The notes beneath the pieces are model-generated. The model saw nothing but the letters and a program-made list of their open reading frames with translations, was not told the DNA's origin and searched no databases. The position numbers were made by a program, and so were the translations under genes. Source: Clostridium sp. Marseille-Q2269 (lineage in GTDB: Bacteria; Bacillota; Clostridia; Clostridiales; Clostridiaceae). From it: a DNA stretch of 64,000 nucleotides. Positions 32,188 to 61,162 of this stretch are shown in pieces. Within the stretch, counting starts at the first letter, position 1. Every line of letters starts with the position of its first letter. The DNA lies in NCBI RefSeq assembly GCF_943736985.1, contig NZ_CALSFS010000012.1:62001-126000 (forward strand), written 5' to 3'.

Positions 32188-32700
32188 TATATAATTGCTA
32201 TATTATAAACAGCTAAAATATAATTAAAGACTAGAAAATTTTTCTCATCCATTTTGTTTTATATTTAAAAGTTAAAATAATATATATTCAGAAGTATGTT
32301 TATAAGGATCTAAAGAATATTATAGTAGAAATAATTATGCAGTTAATTATTAGAAAATTTAATATAGAATAATTGCAACTTAAGAACTATTTATGTTAGT
32401 AAGGGATTTTATTTTAGTTATAAGTTTTGTCTTAGAAAAATATTTGATATTTTTCTAATAAGAAGATTGCAAATCTTAATATATATAACATCAAAAGAGT
32501 GATAAATAATTATAAAAAAGTACCTATGAATTAAATTTTTAGGTACTTTTTATTATAATTATAATAAAAAAATATAATTAAATTTAAGTATAATGATAAA
32601 CCCCAAAATATAAGATAGTATAACGTATTCATAAAATTAAAAATCTTGTTAATTAGTATTTAGAATTTAGTGAAATTAGGAAATATTAATGAAATTTTTA
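32188..32700. other. AT-rich spacer between sugar and aromatic operons
   Basis: No credible coding sequence. It contains an 11-bp perfect stem (32432-32442 with 32448-32458, TTAGAAAAATA type) and the terminator at 32515. Nothing else recognisable. Confidence 0.5.
32515..32551 (+). terminator. Intrinsic terminator upstream of the aro operon
   Basis: AAAAAGTACCTA pairs with TAGGTACTTTTT, 14-nt loop, T-rich end. Confidence 0.75.
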
Positions 32701-32728
32701 TTGACATTAGTTTTTTTTCTGTTACAAT
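32701..32728 (+). promoter_or_regulatory. Sigma-A promoter of the aro operon
   Basis: TTGACA (32701-32706), 16-bp spacer, TACAAT (32723-32728). It lies 145 bp before the leader ORF and about 410 bp before aroF, implying a long leader RNA. Confidence 0.7.
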
Positions 32729-32872
32729 AGATTAAAAATAGTTAACAAACTTGAACAATAATTAGTAGATAAATATTTAAGTTTATATTTATGGAAATTT
32801 AAATGTTATAGTATTTTATTTAAAAGTATTCAATTTACACTAAATAGATTAGTTTTATGTTGGAGGAATATT

Positions 32873-33043
32873 ATGGAATCAATAATTAGAAAAGTTAATG
32901 TAGGACAAGTACAATTTAGAAACTTTTATTTTAGCTGGGGCTTTTATTTTAGCGCTAGTACTTTGTCTTACAAAAAAATATTTAAATACTTTTCTAATGA
33001 GAAAATTATAAATTTTAAAACCGATAAAATACTTATAGGTTAA
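32873..33043 (+). CDS. Aromatic-rich leader peptide of the aro operon
   Basis: 56-codon ORF not previously labelled, with a GGAGGA site 6 bp before the ATG. Codons 15-26 read F-R-N-F-Y-F-S-W-G-F-Y-F: eight of twelve are Phe, Tyr or Trp, and further Tyr/Phe occur at codons 33, 37, 39 and 40. The words ttt-tat-ttt-agc occur twice. The reading frame ends 25 bp before a terminator hairpin and 92 bp before aroF, the first enzyme of aromatic biosynthesis. This is the arrangement of a translation-controlled attenuator leader (as for pheA or trp leaders of enterics). No T-box motif is present in the leader. Function is an inference from codon content, position and RNA pairings; the peptide itself probably has no enzymatic role. 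Confidence 0.8.
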   Translation: MESIIRKVNVGQVQFRNFYFSWGFYFSASTLSYKKIFKYFSNEKIINFKTDKILIG

Positions 33044-33098
33044 TACTAAAGTAAATTTTGGTAAGTTAAGAGTCTCATTAAGAGGCTCTTTTTTTTAT
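32885..33098 (+). promoter_or_regulatory. Transcription attenuator of the aro operon
   Basis: Mutually exclusive RNA pairings: segment 1 (32885-32895, ATTAGAAAAGT) is perfectly complementary over 11 bp to segment 2 (32988-32998, ACTTTTCTAAT). Segment 2 continues to 33002 and its TAATGAGA (32995-33002) pairs over 8 bp with TCTCATTA (33073-33080). That target overlaps the 5' arm and loop of the terminator AGAGTCTC/GAGGCTCT (33069-33076 with 33082-33089, then eight T). A second weaker copy of segment 1 (TTAGAAA, 32916-32922) lies inside the control codons. Pairings are read directly; the regulatory sense is inferred. Confidence 0.7.
33069..33098 (+). terminator. Attenuator terminator before aroF
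   Basis: AGAGTCTC and GAGGCTCT (one G-U), 5-nt loop, followed by a run of eight T; the terminator arm of the leader described at 32885-33098. Confidence 0.85.
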
Positions 33099-33135
33099 TT
33101 TAAAATTATTAATAAAACAAAGGGAGATGTAGAAA

Positions 33136-34152
33136 ATGGTAGTAGTATTAGAAAACAATTTATTAAAAAGAGAATCAGAAAGTATCAAAAACAAGATAAG
33201 TAAATTAGGAAATATAGAGATTAGGGAGGTTCAAGGTGATAATTATACAATATTAGGTCTTATAGGTGATACCAGCAATTTAGATCAAAAAGAAATTAGT
33301 TGTATGACTGGGGTAGAAAAGGTTATGCATGTTCAAGAACCTTACAAGAAAGCTAATAGAATTTTTAACCCTAAAGATACTGTAATAGATATAAATGGTA
33401 ATAAAATAGGTGGAAAGAAATTATCTATTATAGCAGGACCGTGCTCTGTAGAAAATGAAAGTCAAATCGTAGAAATTGCCCAAAGTGTAAAATCAGCAGG
33501 AGCATCCTTTTTAAGAGGAGGAGCTTACAAACCAAGAACATCTCCATACAGTTTCCAAGGATTAGAGAGTGAAGGATTAGAACTATTAAAGATTGCAAGA
33601 AGACAAACTAACCTGCCTATAGTTACAGAAATTATGTCCCCTAATTTAGTAGAAAAATTTCAAGAAGATGTAGATATAATTCAAGTTGGAGCAAGAAATA
33701 TGCAAAATTTTGATTTGCTTAAAGAATTAGGTAAGACCAACAAACCAATACTTCTAAAAAGAGGACTAAGTGCCACTATAGAAGAACTTTTAATGTCTGC
33801 TGAATACATAATGGCAGGAGGCAATGAGAATGTAATACTTTGTGAAAGAGGAATTCGTACATTTGAAAAATACACTAGAAATACATTAGATTTAAGTGCA
33901 ATCCCTGCAATAAAGAAATTAAGTCATTTACCTATAATAGTGGATCCAAGTCATGCTGCTGGATTGTGGTGGATGGTAGAACCTTTAACTAAAGCTGCTG
34001 TAGCAGTTGGAGCCGATGGTATAATAGTAGAAGTTCATAATGATCCACAAAATGCTAAATGTGATGGAGCACAATCTATAAGACCAAAAAGATTTGAGAA
34101 ACTAATGAAAGATATAAAAGATATTGCACTTGCAGTTGGGAGAGAAGTATAA
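33136..34152 (+). CDS. aroF: 3-deoxy-7-phosphoheptulonate synthase (DAHP synthase)
   Basis: 338-aa type I-beta DAHP synthase, first step of the shikimate pathway (PEP + erythrose-4-P). Residues 1 to about 70 form a ferredoxin-like regulatory domain as in Thermotoga, which gives feedback sensing of Tyr/Phe. The barrel has IAGPCSVEN, LRGGAYKPRTSPYSFQG, TEIMSP, QVGARNMQNF, LKRGLSATIEE, CERGIRTFE and DPSHAAGLWWMV. First of nine contiguous aro genes; expression is probably set by the leader attenuator upstream. Confidence 0.96.
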   Translation: MVVVLENNLLKRESESIKNKISKLGNIEIREVQGDNYTILGLIGDTSNLDQKEISCMTGVEKVMHVQEPYKKANRIFNPKDTVIDINGNKIGGKKLSIIAGPCSVENESQIVEIAQSVKSAGASFLRGGAYKPRTSPYSFQGLESEGLELLKIARRQTNLPIVTEIMSPNLVEKFQEDVDIIQVGARNMQNFDLLKELGKTNKPILLKRGLSATIEELLMSAEYIMAGGNENVILCERGIRTFEKYTRNTLDLSAIPAIKKLSHLPIIVDPSHAAGLWWMVEPLTKAAVAVGADGIIVEVHNDPQNAKCDGAQSIRPKRFEKLMKDIKDIALAVGREV

Positions 34153-34153
34153 A

Positions 34154-34999
34154 ATGGATTTCTCGGATTTTAATGTATCTATTGTGGGTTTAGGGCTTAT
34201 AGGAGGATCTTTTGCTAAAGCTTTAAAAAAATGTGGTTTTAAAAATTTATGGGCTATAGATATAAATCAAGATAATTTAAAAAAAGCAGAAGAATTAAAT
34301 ATAATAGATAAAGGGTTTACAGAGTCAAGTATTCCTTTAAATAAATCTGACATTACAATAGTATGTTTATATCCTGAATTGGTAATAAATTTTATACAGG
34401 ATAATATAAAAGAATTCAAGAAAAACTCTATAATAACAGATGTTGCAGGGGTTAAATCTAATATAGTTCATGAGATTCAAAATCTAATTTCTGATGATAT
34501 AGATTTCATAGGAGGTCATCCAATAGCAGGAAAAGAAAGCAAGGGGTTTGAGATTTCCTCAGAAAAGATATTTGAAAATGCAGACTATATTTTAACCCCT
34601 ACATCACAAAATAAAACTGAGAATATTAAACTTCTAAAAGAGATTATTAGAGCAATTAAATTTAAGAAAATTATAGAAGTAACTGTGGAAGAACATGATG
34701 AAATGATAGCCTATGTAAGCCAATTGCCTCATATAATAGCTACTGTAATTATGAATAACGGCATGGTAGATAAAGAGAATATATGCATAGGGGGAAGTTT
34801 TAAAGATATCACAAGAGTTTCCAATGTTAATTCTGATTTATGGGTAGAACTTTTAATTAAAAATAGAAGTAATGTAATAAAACAGATAGAATATCTTAAA
34901 AGTCAATTAGGATCTATAGAAGAGTTATTAAAGTTAAAAAAATCTAATGAATTAAAAAGAATATTTGATAAAGGACGAGAGAAAAAAGAGAGGATATGA
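34154..34999 (+). CDS. tyrA: Prephenate dehydrogenase
   Basis: 281-aa NAD(P)-dependent enzyme of tyrosine synthesis (prephenate to 4-hydroxyphenylpyruvate). N-terminal Rossmann motif VSIVGLGLIGGSFAKALKKCG, active-site region GGHPIAGKESKGFE and the His/Arg-containing SQLPHIIATV and GGSFKDITRVSN. The ATG at 34154, 1 bp after the aroF stop, is chosen because it is followed directly by the Rossmann fold. No ACT domain at the C terminus, so no built-in Tyr feedback domain is visible. Confidence 0.93.
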   Translation: MDFSDFNVSIVGLGLIGGSFAKALKKCGFKNLWAIDINQDNLKKAEELNIIDKGFTESSIPLNKSDITIVCLYPELVINFIQDNIKEFKKNSIITDVAGVKSNIVHEIQNLISDDIDFIGGHPIAGKESKGFEISSEKIFENADYILTPTSQNKTENIKLLKEIIRAIKFKKIIEVTVEEHDEMIAYVSQLPHIIATVIMNNGMVDKENICIGGSFKDITRVSNVNSDLWVELLIKNRSNVIKQIEYLKSQLGSIEELLKLKKSNELKRIFDKGREKKERI

Positions 35000-35004
35000 T
35001 GTAG

Positions 35005-36075
35005 GTGAAAAGTTTAAGTATAAACTTGCCTGATACAAGCTATTCTATTTATATTAAAAAAGGTTTATTAGACGAAGTAGGATGTAAAATAAAAAAAATA
35101 TATACTGGACAAAAGATAGCAATAGTTACAGACGATAATGTATATAAATTATATGGTGATAAAATTAAGAATGTATTAGAAAAAAATAATTTCAATATAA
35201 AATTTATTGTCATAGAAAACGGAGAAAAAAGTAAATCAATAAGTGTACTTCAGGATATATATAACGGATTTTTAAATTTTAATCTTACAAGAAGTGATCT
35301 AATAATAACTTTTGGAGGTGGAGTTGTAGGTGATATAGGAGGATTTGCTGCAGCTACATTTTTAAGAGGAGTACCATTTATACAAATTCCTACCACATTA
35401 CTTTCTCAAATTGATAGTAGTATAGGAGGAAAAGTTGCAGTTAATTTAGGAAGAGGGAAAAATTTAATAGGCAACTTTTATCATCCTAAAGTTGTATTTA
35501 TAGATCCAGAAGTTTTAAAAACATTAGATAAGAGAGTTTTTAATGATGGATTAAGTGAATGTATAAAATATGGCTGTATAAAAGATGAGGGGCTTTTTTC
35601 AAAGCTTTTAAATTATGATTCTTACGAAGATCTTTATAAAAATATAGAATATATAATATATAGTTGTTGTAGTATAAAAAAAGAATTTGTGGAACATGAT
35701 GAAAAAGATACAGGTAAAAGAATGATTCTTAACTTTGGACATACTATAGGACATGCTATAGAACAATATTTTAGCTATGACGTATATACACATGGAGAAG
35801 CGGTGGCCATTGGTATGTATATAATAGTAAATAATTCTGAAATCATAGGTGAAACTAAGAAAGGTACAGCAAAAAAAATAAAAGAATTATTAATTAAATA
35901 TAATTTACCTTGGAATGTGGAAAAAATGGATATGAATGAAATTATAAAAACAATTAATTTAGATAAAAAGATAGATGGAAATAATATAAATTTGATTTTG
36001 ATTAAAAATATAGGAGAAAGTTTTATAAAGAAAATAAAAAAAGAACAAGCATCAAAATATATAATTGGATGTTAA
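35005..36075 (+). CDS. aroB: 3-dehydroquinate synthase, GTG start
   Basis: 356-aa NAD- and zinc-dependent enzyme turning DAHP into 3-dehydroquinate. NAD loop FGGGVVGDIGGFAAATFLRGV, substrate motif PTTLLSQIDSSIGGKVAVN, zinc ligands in LSECIKYG (Glu), NFGHTIGHAIE and THGEAVAIGM. GTG start 5 bp after tyrA. Followed by a 252-bp gap before aroA that has no terminator I can see. Confidence 0.96.
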   Translation: MKSLSINLPDTSYSIYIKKGLLDEVGCKIKKIYTGQKIAIVTDDNVYKLYGDKIKNVLEKNNFNIKFIVIENGEKSKSISVLQDIYNGFLNFNLTRSDLIITFGGGVVGDIGGFAAATFLRGVPFIQIPTTLLSQIDSSIGGKVAVNLGRGKNLIGNFYHPKVVFIDPEVLKTLDKRVFNDGLSECIKYGCIKDEGLFSKLLNYDSYEDLYKNIEYIIYSCCSIKKEFVEHDEKDTGKRMILNFGHTIGHAIEQYFSYDVYTHGEAVAIGMYIIVNNSEIIGETKKGTAKKIKELLIKYNLPWNVEKMDMNEIIKTINLDKKIDGNNINLILIKNIGESFIKKIKKEQASKYIIGC

Positions 36076-36327
36076 TTTAACTTCTTGTGTTAGTTAATAT
36101 TTTATATTGAAATTACTCTTTTTAAAGTTAAAGAATATCTAAATACAAAAATATTAATATAGTATTTTCAAGATTAAAGAAATTTAGTTAGCACAATAAG
36201 GTAAGTTATAAATAAGATGTGTTATTTAAATATAGATACTTTATTATAAAAGTTAATAATTATAGTTAGTAAAAAATTTTAATATAAAAAATTTATAATT
36301 AAAGATGGAAGAAAAGCGGGGAGATTT

Positions 36328-37620
36328 ATGAAAGATTTAAAAATAGAACCAAGCAACTTAAGCGGTAATATAAGCATACCTCCTTCCAAGAGCATGAGTC
36401 ATAGAGCTATAATTTGTGCTAGTTTAAGTGAAGGAACAACTAAGATAGAAAACATCATTTTTTCAAATGATATAATAGCTACGTGTGATGCTATGACATC
36501 ATTAGGGACAAATATAGAATGCTTGAAAAATCAAAGTGAAATTTATATACAAGGTAAAGAAAAATTGGAATTGATTAATGATGTAATTGATTGTAATGAA
36601 TCTGGTTCTACTATAAGATTTTTAATACCTATAGCATTGACTCAAAACAATAAGGTTACTTTTAAGGGAAAAGGAAAATTAGTAGAAAGACCATTGGATG
36701 TGTATTATAAAATTTTTGATGAGAAAGATATAGAGTACAAAAATGCAAATAATAAACTTCCATTAGAATTAAAAGGTCCATTAGTATCTGGAACTTATAA
36801 ATTAAGAGGTGATGTTAGCTCTCAATTTATAAGTGGATTACTATTTGCATTACCACTTTTACATGGAGATTCTAAAATAATAATAACAACTAACCTTGAA
36901 TCTAAAGGCTATGTAGACTTAACACTTCAGATGCTTAAGAGATTTAATATAGATATAGAAAATAAGAAGTACAAAGAATTTTATATAAAAGGTAATCAAA
37001 AATATTCCAGTATGAATTATAATGTTGAAGGTGATTTTTCACAAGCTGCTTTCTTTTTAGTGGCTGGTATATTAGGTGGAAATATAGTATGTTGTAATAT
37101 AAATATACATTCTGTTCAAGGTGATAAGAAAATATTAAAAATAATAGAAGATATGGGTGCAAATATAAAAGTAGAAAATGATAAAGTTAGAGTTTTAAAA
37201 TCTTGTACATATGGAATTGATATAGATGTATCACAGTGCCCAGATTTAGTTCCTATACTTTCTGTATTAGCAGCTTTAAGCAAAGGAAAAACTAGAATAA
37301 TAAATGCTAAAAGATTAAGAATAAAGGAATGTGATAGATTAAGAGCTATGGCTACAGAACTTAAAGTTCTTGGAGCAGAAATTGAAGAATTAGAGGACGG
37401 ATTAGTTATTACAGGAAAAGACATGTTAAAGGGTGGAATAGTAGATAGTTGGAATGATCATAGAATAGCTATGGCTTTAGCTATAGCTTCAATAAAATGT
37501 ACAGAGCCTGTTATAATAAAAAATACAGATGCAGTTAATAAATCTTATCCTGATTTTTGGGAAGATTTTAAAATGCTTGGAGGTAAAGTAAATGAGTGGA
37601 GTATGGGGAAAAAAAATTAA
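36328..37620 (+). CDS. aroA: EPSP synthase (3-phosphoshikimate 1-carboxyvinyltransferase)
   Basis: 430-aa two-lobed enzyme joining PEP and shikimate-3-phosphate. Conserved: SIPPSKSMSHRAIICASLSEG (Lys and Ser-rich loop), ESGSTIRFLIPI, RPLDVYY, DVSSQFISGLLFA, RIKECDRLRAMATELKVLGAE and SWNDHRIAMALAIAS. The GxxxS/R pattern corresponds to a normal enzyme; class assignment for inhibitor sensitivity is not attempted. GGGGAG ribosome site. Overlaps aroC by 29 bp. Confidence 0.96.
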   Translation: MKDLKIEPSNLSGNISIPPSKSMSHRAIICASLSEGTTKIENIIFSNDIIATCDAMTSLGTNIECLKNQSEIYIQGKEKLELINDVIDCNESGSTIRFLIPIALTQNNKVTFKGKGKLVERPLDVYYKIFDEKDIEYKNANNKLPLELKGPLVSGTYKLRGDVSSQFISGLLFALPLLHGDSKIIITTNLESKGYVDLTLQMLKRFNIDIENKKYKEFYIKGNQKYSSMNYNVEGDFSQAAFFLVAGILGGNIVCCNINIHSVQGDKKILKIIEDMGANIKVENDKVRVLKSCTYGIDIDVSQCPDLVPILSVLAALSKGKTRIINAKRLRIKECDRLRAMATELKVLGAEIEELEDGLVITGKDMLKGGIVDSWNDHRIAMALAIASIKCTEPVIIKNTDAVNKSYPDFWEDFKMLGGKVNEWSMGKKN

Positions 37621-38674
37621 TATATCCATTTTTGGAGAATCCCATGGAGAAGCAATTGGGATAGTAATGGACGGATTGCCTAGTGGATTAAAATTAGATT
37701 TAAATTATATAGATTATGAAATGAAAAGAAGGGCTCCAGGTAAGAACTCAATATCTACAGCTAGAAAAGAACAAGATAGGTTTGATATATTAAGTGGGTA
37801 TTTTGAAGAAAGAACCACAGGAACTCCTTTATGTGCCATTATAAAAAATAGTGATAAAAAATCTAAAGATTACTCAAAGATTAAAGAAGTAATGAGACCA
37901 GGACATGCAGATTTTACAGGTAATATTAAATATGAAGGATATAATGATTATAGAGGAGGAGGGCATTTTTCAGGTAGAATAACTGCGCCCCTAGTATTTG
38001 CAGGGGCAGTAGCAAAGCAAATATTAGAAAAAAAGGGTGTAGTTATAGGAAGCCACATAAAATCTATTAAATATATACAGGATACTAATTTTAATTTAAT
38101 TGATATAAAAGAAGAGCAACTTAAAGAACTAAGATTAGAAGAGTTTCCTACAATAGATAAAGATAAAAAGGAAGAGATGAAAGAAATAATTTTACAAGCA
38201 AAAGAAAGAGGAGATTCTGTGGGAGGAATAGTAGAGTGTGCTGCTATTAATTTAGATTCCGGATTAGGAAGTCCTTTCTTTGATTCTATAGAAAGTACCC
38301 TATCACATTTGTTATTTTCAATTCCAGCAATAAAGGGTGTGGAATTTGGAGCTGGATTTGATATAACTGAAATGCTTGGTTCAGAATCTAATGATGAATT
38401 TTATTATGAAGATAATAAGGTAAAGACTTATAGTAATAATAATGGAGGAATATTAGGTGGAATAACTAATGGAATGCCACTTGTTTTTAGATGTGCCATA
38501 AAGCCTACCCCATCTATATCGAAGACTCAAAGAACTATAGATATAAATAAAAAGGAAAATGTTATTTTAAATGTTACAGGAAGGCACGATCCTTGTATAG
38601 TTCAAAGAGCTGTGCCTGTAATAGAAGCAGTAACAGCTATTGCTCTATTAGATGTTTATTTAAATAAAAATTAA
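37592..38674 (+). CDS. aroC: Chorismate synthase
   Basis: 360-aa FMN-dependent enzyme that makes chorismate from EPSP. Signatures: FGESHGEAIGIVMDGLPSG at the N terminus, RPGHADFTGNIKYEGYNDY, RGGGHFSGRITA and the C-terminal TGRHDPCIVQRAVPVIEA. Starts inside the 3' end of aroA in another frame, so translation is coupled. Full length. Confidence 0.97.
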   Translation: MSGVWGKKINISIFGESHGEAIGIVMDGLPSGLKLDLNYIDYEMKRRAPGKNSISTARKEQDRFDILSGYFEERTTGTPLCAIIKNSDKKSKDYSKIKEVMRPGHADFTGNIKYEGYNDYRGGGHFSGRITAPLVFAGAVAKQILEKKGVVIGSHIKSIKYIQDTNFNLIDIKEEQLKELRLEEFPTIDKDKKEEMKEIILQAKERGDSVGGIVECAAINLDSGLGSPFFDSIESTLSHLLFSIPAIKGVEFGAGFDITEMLGSESNDEFYYEDNKVKTYSNNNGGILGGITNGMPLVFRCAIKPTPSISKTQRTIDINKKENVILNVTGRHDPCIVQRAVPVIEAVTAIALLDVYLNKN

Positions 38675-38689
38675 AAGTAGGTGTTCTTT

Positions 38690-39865
38690 ATGAATAAAAA
38701 TGAATTAAATCAGTTAAGAAATCAAATAGATGAAATAGATGAACAATTAATAAAATTATTTGAAAAAAGAATGAATATTGTGGTGGATGTAGCTAAATAT
38801 AAAAAAGAAAATAATATGCCTATATTTAATAGTGAAAGAGAAAAGGAAGTATTAAAAAAAAATGTAGATAGATTAAAAAATGAAAATTTTAAATTATATG
38901 CTGAAGAATTTTTTAAAGATACAATGTCTATAAGTAGAAAATATCAATCATACAAAATGTTTTGTGAAGATAATAAAAAAGAATCAAAAGAAAATTTATG
39001 TATGAGTAAAAATCACGAATTAATATTTAATGAAAATAATAAGATAGGATTTCAGGGTTTAAGGGGATCTTTTAGTGAACAGGCTTTGTTTGATTATTTT
39101 GGAGAAAATATAAATACAATTAACTTTGAAACCTTTGAAGATGTATTTATAAATTTAAAGAATAAAGTTGTAGATTATGCAATACTCCCTTTAGAAAATT
39201 CTTCTACTGGAGCTATAGTGGATGTATATGATTTGTTAAGAAAATATGAATTTTATATCATAGGAGAAAAATGTATAAAAGTAGAACACAATATTGTGGG
39301 AATAAAGGGGTCAAAATTAGAAAGTATAAAAGAAATATATTCTCATCCTCAAGCTTTTCAACAAAGTAGTAATTTTTTAAATAAATATTATAACAGAGCA
39401 AAATTAATACCATATTATAATACTGCCATAAGTGCAGAATTTATAAAAAATGAAGATGATATAAGTAAAGCTGCCATATCTAGCAAAAGAGCTTCACAAA
39501 TATATGGATTAGAAATATTAAAAGAAAATATAAATAATAATAATAATAATAATACTAGATTTATTATAATAGGAAGAGAATTAATTGATACTCCAAATAA
39601 CAATAAAATAAGTGTAGCCTTTTCTTTAGAGCATAAGGCAGGAACATTATATAACGTGCTAAGATATTTTTCAGATAACGATCTTAATATGTTAAAAATA
39701 GAATCTAGACCAACAGGAAATAAAAATTGGACTTATTTATTTTATATAGATTTTGAAGGAAATAATAAAAGTGGAAAAGTTAATAATGCATTAAATTTGA
39801 TAAAAGAAAACAGTGAATGTTTTAAAATCATGGGATCTTATATTAAAGATCAATCTTATGAATAA
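38690..39865 (+). CDS. pheA: Bifunctional chorismate mutase / prephenate dehydratase
   Basis: 391-aa P-protein. Chorismate mutase domain at about 1-90 (LRNQIDEIDEQLIKLFEKRM and the catalytic Arg/Lys pattern), prephenate dehydratase at about 120-295 (GLRGSFSEQALFDYF, LPLENSSTGAIVDVYDLL and the catalytic TRF), and ACT domain to the end with ESRPTGNKNWTY, the Phe-binding ESRP motif. Seven AAT codons (39533-39553) encode a run of Asn right before TRF. ATG at 38690 follows AAGTAGGTG; the earlier GTG overlaps this site. Confidence 0.95.
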   Translation: MNKNELNQLRNQIDEIDEQLIKLFEKRMNIVVDVAKYKKENNMPIFNSEREKEVLKKNVDRLKNENFKLYAEEFFKDTMSISRKYQSYKMFCEDNKKESKENLCMSKNHELIFNENNKIGFQGLRGSFSEQALFDYFGENINTINFETFEDVFINLKNKVVDYAILPLENSSTGAIVDVYDLLRKYEFYIIGEKCIKVEHNIVGIKGSKLESIKEIYSHPQAFQQSSNFLNKYYNRAKLIPYYNTAISAEFIKNEDDISKAAISSKRASQIYGLEILKENINNNNNNNTRFIIIGRELIDTPNNNKISVAFSLEHKAGTLYNVLRYFSDNDLNMLKIESRPTGNKNWTYLFYIDFEGNNKSGKVNNALNLIKENSECFKIMGSYIKDQSYE

Positions 39866-39883
39866 AAATTTGGAGGAATAAAT

Positions 39884-40693
39884 TTGTATATATACGGATT
39901 ACTAGGAGAAAAACTTGGACATAGTTTATCACCGCAAATACATAAATTAATATTTGAAAAATTGGGTGTTAATGGTGTCTATAATTTGTTTGAAGTAAAT
40001 AAAAAAAATCTTAAAGATGCAGTATGTGGAATTAAGGCATTAAACATGAAAGGCATAAATGTTACTATACCATATAAGATTGAAACTATGAAGTATATAG
40101 ATGAAATTTCTAAGGAAGCAAGTAAAATAGGAGCTATAAATACTATAGCTATAACAAATAATGAACTAATAGGATATAATACTGATTATTATGGATTTGG
40201 AATGATGCTAGAAAAATTTAATGTGGACATAAAAAATAAATCTATAGTAGTTTTAGGTAGTGGAGGAGCTTCTAAAGCTGTAGTTCAATATTTAAAAGAT
40301 AATGATTGTAGCAAAATCATAATTGCAAGTAGGAATATGAATGAAGCTAAATGTAAGTTTAAGGATTGTGATATAATTTCTTATAAACAATTAAATAATA
40401 TATGCAACTCTGAAATTATAATAAATTGTACACCCATAGGAATGTATCCTAATACAAATAAATCTACAGTTGAAGAAGATATATTAAATAAATTTAAAGT
40501 AAGCATAGATCTAATATACAATCCTTTAGAAACATTGTTTTTAAAAAAATCTAAATCTGTAGGGAATATCTGTATTAACGGATTATATATGTTAGTTGGT
40601 CAAGCAATAAAGTCAGAAGAATTGTGGAATAATATTAAAATTGATAAAAAAGTAATAGATGAAATTTATAGTGAATTAATAAAAATAATATAA
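39884..40693 (+). CDS. aroE: Shikimate dehydrogenase, TTG start
   Basis: 269-aa NADP-dependent reductase converting 3-dehydroshikimate to shikimate. YGLLGEKLGHSLSPQIHKLIF at the N terminus, substrate Lys/Asp in GINVTIPYKIETMKYID and NTDYYGFGMML, Rossmann loop VVLGSGGASKAVVQYL and C-terminal GLYMLVGQAIKSEELW. TTG start after GGAGGAA. Follows pheA with an 18-bp gap. Confidence 0.95.
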   Translation: MYIYGLLGEKLGHSLSPQIHKLIFEKLGVNGVYNLFEVNKKNLKDAVCGIKALNMKGINVTIPYKIETMKYIDEISKEASKIGAINTIAITNNELIGYNTDYYGFGMMLEKFNVDIKNKSIVVLGSGGASKAVVQYLKDNDCSKIIIASRNMNEAKCKFKDCDIISYKQLNNICNSEIIINCTPIGMYPNTNKSTVEEDILNKFKVSIDLIYNPLETLFLKKSKSVGNICINGLYMLVGQAIKSEELWNNIKIDKKVIDEIYSELIKII

Positions 40694-40727
40694 TAGATGA
40701 AATATTTAATTAGATTAGGTGATTTTA

Positions 40728-41216
40728 ATGAAAAAAAATATAGTATTGATAGGAATGCCAGGTTGTGGTAAGACTACCATAGGAAAAATTATAGCTAAAG
40801 AAACTGGGTTAAAGTTTTATGATGTAGATGAATATATAGAAATAACTACAAATGAATCCATTCTTAGTTTGTTTAAAAAAGGAGAAGAATATTTTAGAAA
40901 TATAGAAACTGAAGCAGTAAAACAAATATCTAAAAAAGAGAATATAATTATTTCTACTGGTGGAGGAGTAATAAAAAGAGAAGAAAATATAAGATATTTA
41001 AAAGAGAATGGGAAAATATTTTTTATAGATAGGCCTCTAAATAATATATTAAAGGATATAGATATTGAAGCTAGGCCTTTATTAAAAGATCAGAAAGCTA
41101 ATTTAATTAAATTATATAATGAGAGATATAAACTTTATAAAAAATATAGCCATTTTACAGTTACTAATGAAGAAAAATTGAGTTTAGTAGTGGATGCTAT
41201 TATGTCAAATTTATAA
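40728..41216 (+). CDS. aroK: Shikimate kinase
   Basis: 162-aa P-loop kinase phosphorylating shikimate. Walker A LIGMPGCGKTTIGK, shikimate contacts in FYDVDEYIE, FRNIETEAVKQI and STGGGVI, lid Arg in IEARPLLKD. The ATG at 40728 is selected; the GTG at 40719 lies in the AGGTG ribosome site. Genes aroE and aroK are adjacent as usual in clostridia. Confidence 0.95.
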   Translation: MKKNIVLIGMPGCGKTTIGKIIAKETGLKFYDVDEYIEITTNESILSLFKKGEEYFRNIETEAVKQISKKENIIISTGGGVIKREENIRYLKENGKIFFIDRPLNNILKDIDIEARPLLKDQKANLIKLYNERYKLYKKYSHFTVTNEEKLSLVVDAIMSNL

Positions 41217-41261
41217 AGTGTACAAGTGAAAGTCCTTATTATCTTTATGGAGGTGCTTTAG

Positions 41262-41687
41262 ATGAAAATTTTATTAATCAATGGTCCTAATTTAAATATG
41301 TTAGGCATAAGAGAAAAGAACATCTATGGAACTATGACCTATGATGAAATGTGTTCTTATCTTAACAAAAAAGCCAGTGAATTAGAAATAGATTTAAATA
41401 TTGTTCAAAGTAATATAGAAGGTGAAATAGTTACATATATACAATCTGCCTATGAAAAATATGATGGAATAATAATAAACCCAGCAGCGTATACCCATTA
41501 TAGTATAGCTATATATGATGCTTTAAAAGCTGTAAATATGAAAGCTATAGAAGTTCATCTTAGTAATATACATAAAAGAGAAGAGTATAGAAAAAAATCA
41601 GTAACAGCGGAGGCCTGTATAGGCCAGATATGCGGATTTGGTCCATTTGGATATGTTATGGCTATGAACGCAATAAAAGAATTATAA
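41262..41687 (+). CDS. aroQ: 3-dehydroquinate dehydratase, type II
   Basis: 141-aa dodecameric dehydratase forming 3-dehydroshikimate. LLINGPNLNMLGIREKNIYG (with catalytic Tyr of the lid), INPAAYTHYSIAIYDAL (catalytic His) and EVHLSNIHKREEYRKKS. Last gene of the aro run. No strong terminator is visible after it. Confidence 0.96.
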   Translation: MKILLINGPNLNMLGIREKNIYGTMTYDEMCSYLNKKASELEIDLNIVQSNIEGEIVTYIQSAYEKYDGIIINPAAYTHYSIAIYDALKAVNMKAIEVHLSNIHKREEYRKKSVTAEACIGQICGFGPFGYVMAMNAIKEL

Positions 41688-55605: not shown

Positions 55606-56118
55606 TTAAATTGTCATTGAAGATCTTTTAAGGGCTGCATTTATTGAATTATATAGTATAACTGAGGCTATAGTATTTATTATGCATGCAGGCACTATAA
55701 CAGTTGTAACTAAAACCATAAATGGAGCTGGCAGAGAAACTAATAATAAAGCAGAACCTAGAAAAATGAAACCGCTTATAAAAGTTCCTATAATTGACAA
55801 TATAATCATTCTTAGCTGATTTTGTATCTTTCCATCTGTAATTTTGATTAATAGGAACATTATATTTGCTGTAAGTATTTTATCTATCAAGTTAGGAATT
55901 TGACCTGCAGGAAAAGTTGTGGTAGCAGCTGTTAAAATTCCTGATAAAATGCCAATTACTAGTGTGGTTTTATAATCTTTTGCTATTACTAAAGCTATAA
56001 ACATCATGGTCAATAAAAAATCTGGTTTCATTCCAAATAATAATGGAGGTGAAATTTGGTGTAATAATAAGCCTATGGCTAAAAGTAGTGAACATATTAT
56101 CATTTTTTTTAAGTTCAT
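55606..56118 (-). CDS. trpP: Tryptophan transporter TrpP
   Basis: 170-aa membrane protein of the TrpP (YhaG-like) family, about five helices (MIICSLLLAIGLLLHQ, FLLTMMFIALVIA, TTLVIGILSGILTAATTTFP, MIILSIIGTFISGFIFLGSA, LVTTVIVPACIINTIASVILY). The conserved FPAGQIPNLIDK loop is typical. A T-box with a Trp specifier lies upstream on the same strand, which independently supports tryptophan as substrate. GGGG ribosome site. Confidence 0.92.
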   Translation of the reverse strand: MNLKKMIICSLLLAIGLLLHQISPPLLFGMKPDFLLTMMFIALVIAKDYKTTLVIGILSGILTAATTTFPAGQIPNLIDKILTANIMFLLIKITDGKIQNQLRMIILSIIGTFISGFIFLGSALLLVSLPAPFMVLVTTVIVPACIINTIASVILYNSINAALKRSSMTI

Positions 56119-56309: not shown

Positions 56310-56590
56310 CAAAAAATCCTCTATCCTAATATTTATTAGGACGAAGATTATATTCGCGGTGCCACCTAATTTATGTTTAAACAATTAAAATTTAAACATA
56401 TCTCATTATTCAGGTACTAACATACCCTATCCTTTTTAACGGTAGGCTTCCGATAAATACTACTTTCTATAAAAGATTTCGCTTTATTTCTCTAAGGCCC
56501 ATTCACTAAGACTCCCATTGCTAAGATTCCACCATCCTTAGCTCTCTTTGAATATTTATCTTAGGTACTCTTCCTTATCAGTGAATTATA
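56310..56590 (-). promoter_or_regulatory. T-box riboswitch (tRNA-Trp) of trpP
   Basis: On the minus strand: stem I with AGAGAG and GGATGGTGGAA-type elements, a GAA-TGG-GCC specifier loop (TGG at 56501-56499, Trp codon), the antiterminator T-box AGGTGGCACCGCG (56367-56355) and then a terminator hairpin TCCTAAT/ATTAGGA with a T-tract ending near 56310. Uncharged tRNA-Trp would allow read-through into trpP. Promoter immediately upstream. Confidence 0.93.
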
Positions 56591-59918: not shown

Positions 59919-59944
59919 TAAGATATAAAATATAATAATTAATA

Positions 59945-60030
59945 ATAGCAGGGGTGCCATAAAGGCTGAGAGGAAGTTTTCCAACCCTTTGAACCTGATG
60001 TAATTAAGATTACCGTAGGGAGCAATTACA
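59945..60030 (+). promoter_or_regulatory. TPP riboswitch (THI element) 1
   Basis: Conserved blocks GGGGTGCC, GGCTGAGAGG, ACCCTTTGAACCTGATG and the GTAGGGAG end, in the right order and spacing. Binds thiamine pyrophosphate. A terminator hairpin 35 nt downstream makes it a transcriptional OFF switch. The controlled gene is the TatD-like hydrolase. Confidence 0.95.
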
Positions 60031-60063
60031 ATATATAACATATTAGTAATTTATGTATAGTAT

Positions 60064-60882: not shown

Positions 60883-61026
60883 AATCAGTATTTGAGTCCA
60901 TTAATTTATATATTGGAATTATTTGATTTGAATTTATAGAAACTTTCAATACAACAATATTAAGTATTGCATTTGACAGCAATATTTAGATTATGTAACA
61001 TATATACTAAGATAATAATTTAATAA

Positions 61027-61115
61027 CACGGGGGAATTAATGTTTTTGATTGAGAGGAAACAATAGAGTTTCGACCCTTAGAACCTGAACTGGATAATGC
61101 CAGCGGAGGGAGTAT
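61027..61115 (+). promoter_or_regulatory. TPP riboswitch (THI element) 2
   Basis: Blocks CACGGGGG, GATTGAGAGG, ACCCTTAGAACCTGAACTGG, ATGCCAGCGGAGGGAG. Controls the thiamine-binding protein/thiX/thiY/thiZ run. A consensus TTGACA at 60973-60978 with TAACAT 17 bp later is the likely promoter. Confidence 0.95.
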
Positions 61116-61127
61116 TTAAGGTTAATT

Positions 61128-61162
61128 AACCCCTTATTCTCTCTAGAATAAGGGGTTTTTAA
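61128..61162 (+). terminator. Expression-platform terminator of TPP riboswitch 2
   Basis: AACCCCTTATTCT (61128-61140) pairs perfectly with AGAATAAGGGGTT (61145-61157), CTCT loop, then T run. Confidence 0.9.

Follow-up and report, generated by a model that had tools for sequence, protein, structure and literature searches.

The operon for the shikimate pathway and for Phe and Tyr synthesis in Clostridium sp. Marseille-Q2269 is preceded by a short open reading frame rich in aromatic codons. The question that it raises is whether this frame is the sensor of a transcription attenuator and, if so, what it senses and in which direction it switches. We analysed the 64,000-nucleotide stretch of DNA that carries the locus, here called the window, together with related loci. 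The evidence favours a ribosome-mediated transcription attenuator that reads mainly charged tRNA-Phe and tRNA-Tyr, with Trp as an optional addition, a reading to which we assign a probability of about 0.87. The elements of the locus are as follows.

32701..32728, + strand: promoter-like site, TTGACA-16-TACAAT with TG before the -10 (11 of 12 matches)
32860..32867, + strand: Shine-Dalgarno sequence TTGGAGGA (sequence; Shine-Dalgarno scores in relatives)
32873..33043, + strand: leader peptide open reading frame, 56 codons and TAA (translation, relatives, in-frame gap runs)
32915..32950, + strand: aromatic control codons 15-26, F R N F Y F S W G F Y F (translation, leader alignment)
33068..33098, + strand: intrinsic terminator, stem-loop 33068-33090 and T tract, segments 3:4 (terminator scan)
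33136..34152, + strand: aroF, DAHP synthase, first gene after the leader (profile match)
34154..41687, + strand: remaining operon, tyrA, aroB, aroA, aroC, pheA, aroE, aroK, aroQ (profile match)

Profile matches bear out the view of the first-pass annotation that the genes behind the leader form the shikimate-Phe-Tyr pathway, in the order aroF-tyrA-aroB-aroA-aroC-pheA-aroE-aroK-aroQ. By profile, aroF encodes a DAHP synthase that carries a ferredoxin-like domain, and pheA combines chorismate mutase with prephenate dehydratase; the family matches of tyrA and aroK fall under the NCBIfam curated cut-offs. A promoter-like site with at least 10 of 12 matches is present in the upstream 220 nt of 80 of the 86 representative leaders used for comparison, with a mean best score of 11.2 observed and 8.8 in shuffled sequence.

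The reading frame, its ribosome site and its translation (MESIIRKVNVGQVQFRNFYFSWGFYFSASTLSYKKIFKYFSNEKIINFKTDKILIG, followed by the stop codon) match the earlier description, as does the count of eight aromatic residues in the twelve codons 15-26. Start, ribosome site and stop of the short frame all precede the operon, and the frame carries a run of codons for amino acids that the operon makes. Aromatic richness as evidence standing alone was rejected, since the window is AT-rich and 14 of the 907 start codons of its 20-100 residue frames open frames that pack 8 or more aromatics into 12 codons; the leader is the sole member of these 14 on the + strand. No family in Pfam or NCBIfam matched the peptide.

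The frame recurs in relatives. An AroF search of genome contigs gave 589 loci, of which the best 80 were used, two of them with less than 100 nt of upstream sequence. An aromatic-rich short frame lies upstream of aroF in most of these 80, and many of the frames share the pattern F-Y-F-S-W-G-F-Y-F-S-A-G-Y-F-x-C-x-K. At 50 of the best 80 of 589 loci a leader profile matched on the strand of aroF no more than 450 nt before the gene, a count that is partly circular because the window and 27 of those loci had gone into the profile. Genome searches found relatives of the peptide at several ranks. Around a Clostridium genome, 56 of 391 genomes of its class had one, with no more than 17 candidates per genome scored, and so did 149 of 225 of its order when a broader profile was used. 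The class of a Phascolarctobacterium genome gave 78 of 250, and the genus to which C. magnum belongs 7 of 7. Conservation of the peptide extends from Clostridium as far as Phascolarctobacterium and Sporomusa, and C. tyrobutyricum ATCC 25755 (L009) also has a leader. Four leader copies each occur in C. magnum and in one relative, and extra copies in these two (L087, L092, L121, L173, L176, L177) stand before shikimate-kinase-family genes, class-I DAHP synthases and aroE. At one locus (L041:1511-1648) a leader scoring 25 bits lies ∼1.35 kb upstream of aroF, before another or an inserted gene.

The association with aromatic genes also holds where the leader, and not aroF, was the means of finding the locus. 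The loci examined (L081-L179) are a fetched subset of the profile hits; after the weak hits L088-L091, the duplicate L178 and L167, which has no downstream frame, were set aside, 93 were left. As 22 of the 93, all with aroF first, have the DNA of a locus chosen through aroF, the association was counted on the other 71, all distinct. The first gene encodes an aromatic-pathway enzyme in 69 of these: an aroF-type DAHP synthase in 54, a member of the shikimate-kinase family in six, tyrA in three, a class-I DAHP synthase in two (L121, L173) and aroB, pheA, aroA and aroE in one each. In the other two (L111, L124) it encodes a sodium:solute symporter. These assignments are BLAST matches to the genes of the window, with ten non-aroF cases checked against NCBIfam or Pfam; the kinases of L169 and L176 have diverged and match the shikimate-kinase family weakly. 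A further 42 loci included one without a downstream frame, nine that repeat earlier DNA and 30 that are new and distinct, whose first genes are aroF (28), aroB (one) and an unassigned 81-residue frame (one), so that 29 of the 30 encode aromatic enzymes.

Two kinds of leader differ in their codon content. The single pheA-first leader (L127) has Phe and one Trp in its block and no Tyr, and the two symporter leaders (L111, L124) have only Tyr there and no Phe. This block content hints at tuning and, in the case of the symporters, at tyrosine transport.

The alignment of 39 clostridial leaders shows where the sequence is constrained as a reading frame. All 217 gap runs from the start codon to the end of the aromatic block are multiples of three; segment 2 has 35 such runs in 45 and the spacer 28 in 125, the gap runs in this alignment being shared by descent. 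Such conservation suggests that the leader is translated. Columns of the block remain aromatic, up to 99% at one column, while F and Y interchange. The mean leader carries 5.2 Phe, 4.7 Tyr and 0.8 Trp (125 leaders), and a Trp lies within the block in 84 of the 125. Phe and Tyr are therefore the main residues, and the sensing of three aromatic amino acids proposed for the window is not a rule of the family. The block is also constrained as nucleotides: its Ser codon is AGC in 234 of 267 cases, compared with 24% in aroF genes, and its Gly codon is GGC or GGT in 230 of 236, compared with 50%. These preferences (leader alignment columns 34-59) hold even in AT-rich genomes. The 3' end of the peptide is not conserved, the same nucleotides being read as SNE in some leaders and as LMS in others, and we conclude that the antiterminator strand, read in differing frames, is kept as RNA. 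The RNA elements are listed below.

32885..32912, + strand: segment 1, outer arm 32885-32895 and inner arm 32899-32912 (folding; conserved in kind)
32932..32957, + strand: block hairpin, in the window only TAGC 32932-32935 with GCTA 32954-32957 (RNAalifold on 39 sequences; frozen codons)
32958..32998, + strand: segment 2, 3' arms of helix 1:2 at 32958-32972 and 32988-32998 (folding, pairing)
32995..33002, + strand: segment 2, antiterminator strand TAATGAGA, overlapping helix 1:2 by 4 nt (pairing)
33073..33080, + strand: segment 3, antiterminator partner TCTCATTA, in the terminator 5' arm and loop (pairing)

The terminator reported before aroF is confirmed at 33068-33098, where it is the only one in a scan of 32400-33200 (0.0 expected from shuffles), and an intrinsic terminator thus precedes the first structural gene. 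An unselected count finds a terminator behind 124 of 125 distinct leaders; the same scan is positive in 22% of shuffled regions. A count of 86 of 86 in the representatives was discarded as circular, because these were drawn from leaders with a terminator.

The 8-bp antiterminator pairing of 32995-33002 with 33073-33080 is exact. Alone it is weak in the window, its score of 18 being non-significant beside shuffles with a mean of 13.5 and a maximum of 19 (n=50), and support for it comes from comparison with relatives. Over the 86 representatives helix 2:3 scores 17.8 with a leader's own terminator, compared with 14.7 with those of other loci and 13.8 with shuffled sequence. The fit to the leader's own partner was reached by none of 20,000 permutations with 86, 35 or 17 representatives, and again by none of 20,000 when terminators with CTCAT were left out (n=37, 21 and 10). 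Examples of the pair are TAATGAG/CTCATTA, CTTTGAGCCTG/CAGGTTCAAAG and GTATAATGGGCT/AGCCTGTTATAT. RNAalifold, unprompted, returned antiterminator 2:3 from the alignment of 39 sequences. Within these 39 clostridial leaders the antiterminator shows no covariation (88.2% of cells paired, the same as shuffled, with 303 of 500 shuffles as high), because its core hardly varies there, and the support for it comes from loci that are less closely related. In 12 of the 86 representatives helix 2:3 does not exceed its shuffled controls. Overall, an antiterminator helix exclusive of the terminator has been kept in evolution.

The competing 11-bp pairing of 32885-32895 with 32988-32998 is likewise exact, and the leader of the window folds better than 200 of 200 shuffles (z -3.46). 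A second 1:2 helix, absent from the first-pass annotation, joins 32899-32912 with 32958-32972 and begins just before the first aromatic codon. In relatives helix 1:2 pairs codons ∼3-10 with a stretch after the block that overlaps the antiterminator strand. Its mean score is 22.8 for a leader's own arms, compared with 16.5 for shuffled sequence and 16.9 with segment 1 of other loci. No permutation in 20,000 reached the own-partner fit with 86, 35 or 17 representatives, nor in the subsets without CTCAT at n=37 and 21; at n=10, 7 of 20,000 did so. The helix is no better than shuffled in eight of the 86. In the clostridial alignment of 39 the outer 1:2 helix is paired in 90% of cells and the inner one in 74%, with two-sided changes at all six of its pairs, and a structure of 1:2, block hairpin and terminator gathers 56 two-sided cells compared with 23.7 in shuffled alignments (0 of 500; 39 rows). 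A stronger helix 1:2 in leaders with a late stop was considered and rejected, the trend being weak (Spearman -0.20, p 0.06).

RNAalifold, again unprompted, also returned a hairpin inside the aromatic block, likewise absent from the first-pass annotation, with one pair compensated in two sequences; it is longer in relatives than in the window. Single-position covariation (c5/c21, p 0.04; c8/c18, p 0.43) was taken as no support, so that the case for the hairpin comes from the frozen codons and the RNAalifold consensus. It would explain why the Ser and Gly codons of the block are frozen. The conservation check proposed for this locus was carried out with a positive outcome: reading frame, aromatic codons and both pairings are kept in relatives, and the spacer drifts.

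The attenuator reading thus draws on a conserved frame and its aromatic codons, on mutually exclusive helices that covary across loci, on the terminators and on the gene association. We infer that tRNA charging is the signal, and with it the stall, the read-through and the size of the read-through. RNA polymerase would start near 32735 and transcribe the leader, on which a ribosome would begin the leader peptide. With charged tRNA-Phe and tRNA-Tyr plentiful, and charged tRNA-Trp where its codon is present, the ribosome would traverse the aromatic block and then either cover segment 2, in leaders with an early stop, or pass on and let 1:2 pair. Either way the antiterminator strand would be hidden, the terminator at 33068-33098 would form and transcription would stop before aroF. 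When these charged tRNAs are scarce, the ribosome would stall in the block, and the stalled or a queued ribosome would separate segment 1 from segment 2; segment 2 would then pair with segment 3, no terminator would form and the operon would be transcribed.

The direction of this switch was modelled by folding the 86 leaders up to segment 3, the decision point, with ribosomes as blocked footprints. With footprints only, the antiterminator has a mean probability of 0.23 on ribosome-free RNA. A ribosome at the start codon raises it to 0.71; a ribosome in the block gives 0.27 on its own and 0.50 when another is queued behind it, and a ribosome at the stop lowers it to 0.09. The earlier caution about the direction of the switch was therefore well placed, as one ribosome in the block hardly shifts the antiterminator. 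When helices are barred from spanning the ribosome, the family averages about 0.58-0.78 at every position as far as 22 codons beyond the block start; by 25 codons, where the ribosome reaches segment 2, the average has dropped to near zero. These family values point to read-through on starvation, and to termination when there is no translation. The window itself fits the folding model poorly. With footprints only it does not switch, the probability being 0.57 both for free RNA and for a stalled ribosome, 0.61 for a queue and 0.62 for a ribosome at the stop. With spanning barred it stays at 0-0.44, under the free value, for the first ten positions of the block, rises to 0.71-0.84 at the final two, holds about 0.8-0.94 as far as 22 codons from the block start and then drops to 0. 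These values put numbers on the earlier caution.

In these models the blocking of helix 1:2 by a stalled ribosome depends on the steric assumption or on a queued ribosome, and two readings of how segment 2 would be released remain: steric exclusion by one ribosome, or the masking of segment 1 by a second. Because the control codons come after segment 1, a single stalled ribosome could leave 1:2 closed, and a second ribosome queued behind it would cover segment 1 and let the antiterminator form. We regard such a queue-reading attenuator as a tentative proposal, with the odds against it. If it were true, the switch would sense ribosome traffic, needing both initiation and an aromatic stall, and the hairpin in the aromatic block would time RNA polymerase.

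In kind, this arrangement resembles known attenuators. The enterobacterial trpL and pheL are leader-peptide attenuators, and the control codons of trpL lie in segment 1. They likewise have runs of product codons in a translated leader, mutually exclusive terminator and antiterminator, and a biosynthetic operon behind. Here, by comparison, the block sits between segments 1 and 2, Phe codons are interspersed with Tyr codons, and the leader is longer. T-boxes bind tRNA directly and need no translation. T-box leaders (Rfam RF00230) also choose between terminator and antiterminator on tRNA charging, before amino acid genes. At Rfam gathering scores no family matched within the window leader or 18 relatives, and the claim that the leader lacks a T-box motif stands, no Rfam T-box covariance model having matched in the same 19 sequences. 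Elsewhere in the window two TPP riboswitches lie ∼1 kb apart (59940-60038 and 61020-61128, + strand), and a T-box is found before an aromatic transporter gene.

56334-56590, - strand: T-box leader, preceding the tryptophan transporter gene
55606-56118, - strand: TrpP-family (PF17099) tryptophan transporter gene (family match)

T-box and leader-peptide control of aromatic genes thus coexist within ∼23 kb. Among 20 aroF loci below the leader cut-off, a T-box lies within 400 nt upstream of aroF at two (L065, L069) and ∼2.3 kb upstream at one (L022), perhaps reflecting an exchange of control systems. The expectation that leader-peptide control of these genes would be unusual in Firmicutes, where T-boxes or TRAP are the norm, holds in part: T-boxes do coexist with the leader design, but that design is common in the sampled Clostridia and Negativicutes.

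Several published elements are similar. Stav et al. 2019 (PMC6429828) show two candidate uORFs of shikimate-metabolism genes, with Phe and Tyr noted, in a legend that gives neither sequence nor genome name; the passages covered mention no antiterminator. Clostridium novyi is among the five genomes of that study, so these uORFs may equal the present leader family, a likeness by description only. The uORFC-13-1 motif, as described by Brewer et al. 2021 (PMC8632094) from 24 sequences, is like the leader in being a uORF before aroF with a terminator behind and a Phe codon; compared by description, it differs in having 'at least one' Phe and in being reported only from Acholeplasma and environmental DNA. 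Our leader profile matched in 0 of 247 genomes from the class and 0 of 195 from the phylum of an Acholeplasmatales MAG, mostly small genomes that make a weak negative control and say nothing about Bacillus. A His leader peptide before hisS/hisZ in bacilli, as outlined by Naville and Gautheret 2010 (PMC2965389), is likewise leader-peptide control in place of a T-box in Firmicutes, with histidine codons and other genes. Within the passages covered (for example of PMC11109978, PMC2494555 and PMC1262725; most subscription papers lie outside this scope), the leader is undescribed beyond the mentions in PMC6429828 and PMC8632094.

Three other explanations have to be weighed. Nascent-chain arrest peptides such as TnaC, which senses Trp, suggest that the peptide itself might sense free Phe or Tyr in the ribosome, its stall acting on the terminator. 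The non-aromatic S-A-G and C-K conserved beside the aromatics, beyond what a plain codon counter needs, fit this idea. The conserved Ser and Gly of the block are, however, frozen as nucleotides (AGC, GGC/GGT) inside the block hairpin, F and Y interchange freely, and arrest on an excess amino acid would be expected to switch a biosynthetic operon the wrong way, which together make an arrest peptide improbable. A T-box or another small-molecule riboswitch, with the reading frame incidental, would be the usual Gram-positive control of such genes, and T-boxes do occur at three of the 20 scanned aroF loci noted above; given the strict frame conservation and the lack of an Rfam match in the window leader and 18 relatives, it is the least credible of the alternatives.

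Termination would itself yield a discrete RNA of ∼360 nt that carries a conserved frame, and a leader peptide that acts in trans is described for Sinorhizobium (PMC7298713). A conserved small protein or regulatory small RNA acting in trans, to which the attenuator pairings would be secondary, is nevertheless hardly more probable than such a riboswitch, and a shade less so than an arrest peptide, as the leader stands in cis before different aromatic genes, the terminator matches its own antiterminator strand and the 3' end of the peptide is unconserved. The evidence thus favours the attenuator that reads charged tRNA-Phe and tRNA-Tyr.

The leader family is new, well supported and widespread, of a kind, the leader-peptide attenuator, that is already known; the uORFs of PMC6429828 may possibly be the same. 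It provides a likely mechanism by which many Clostridia and Negativicutes would control the first step of the shikimate pathway, one that matched no Rfam family in the sequences examined, and it places leader-peptide attenuation, common in the sampled members of both groups, beside T-boxes. With this segment layout, the idea that ribosome queues drive an attenuator can be tested directly, and the leader can serve as a marker for aromatic regulons, including the two symporters with Tyr-only leaders.
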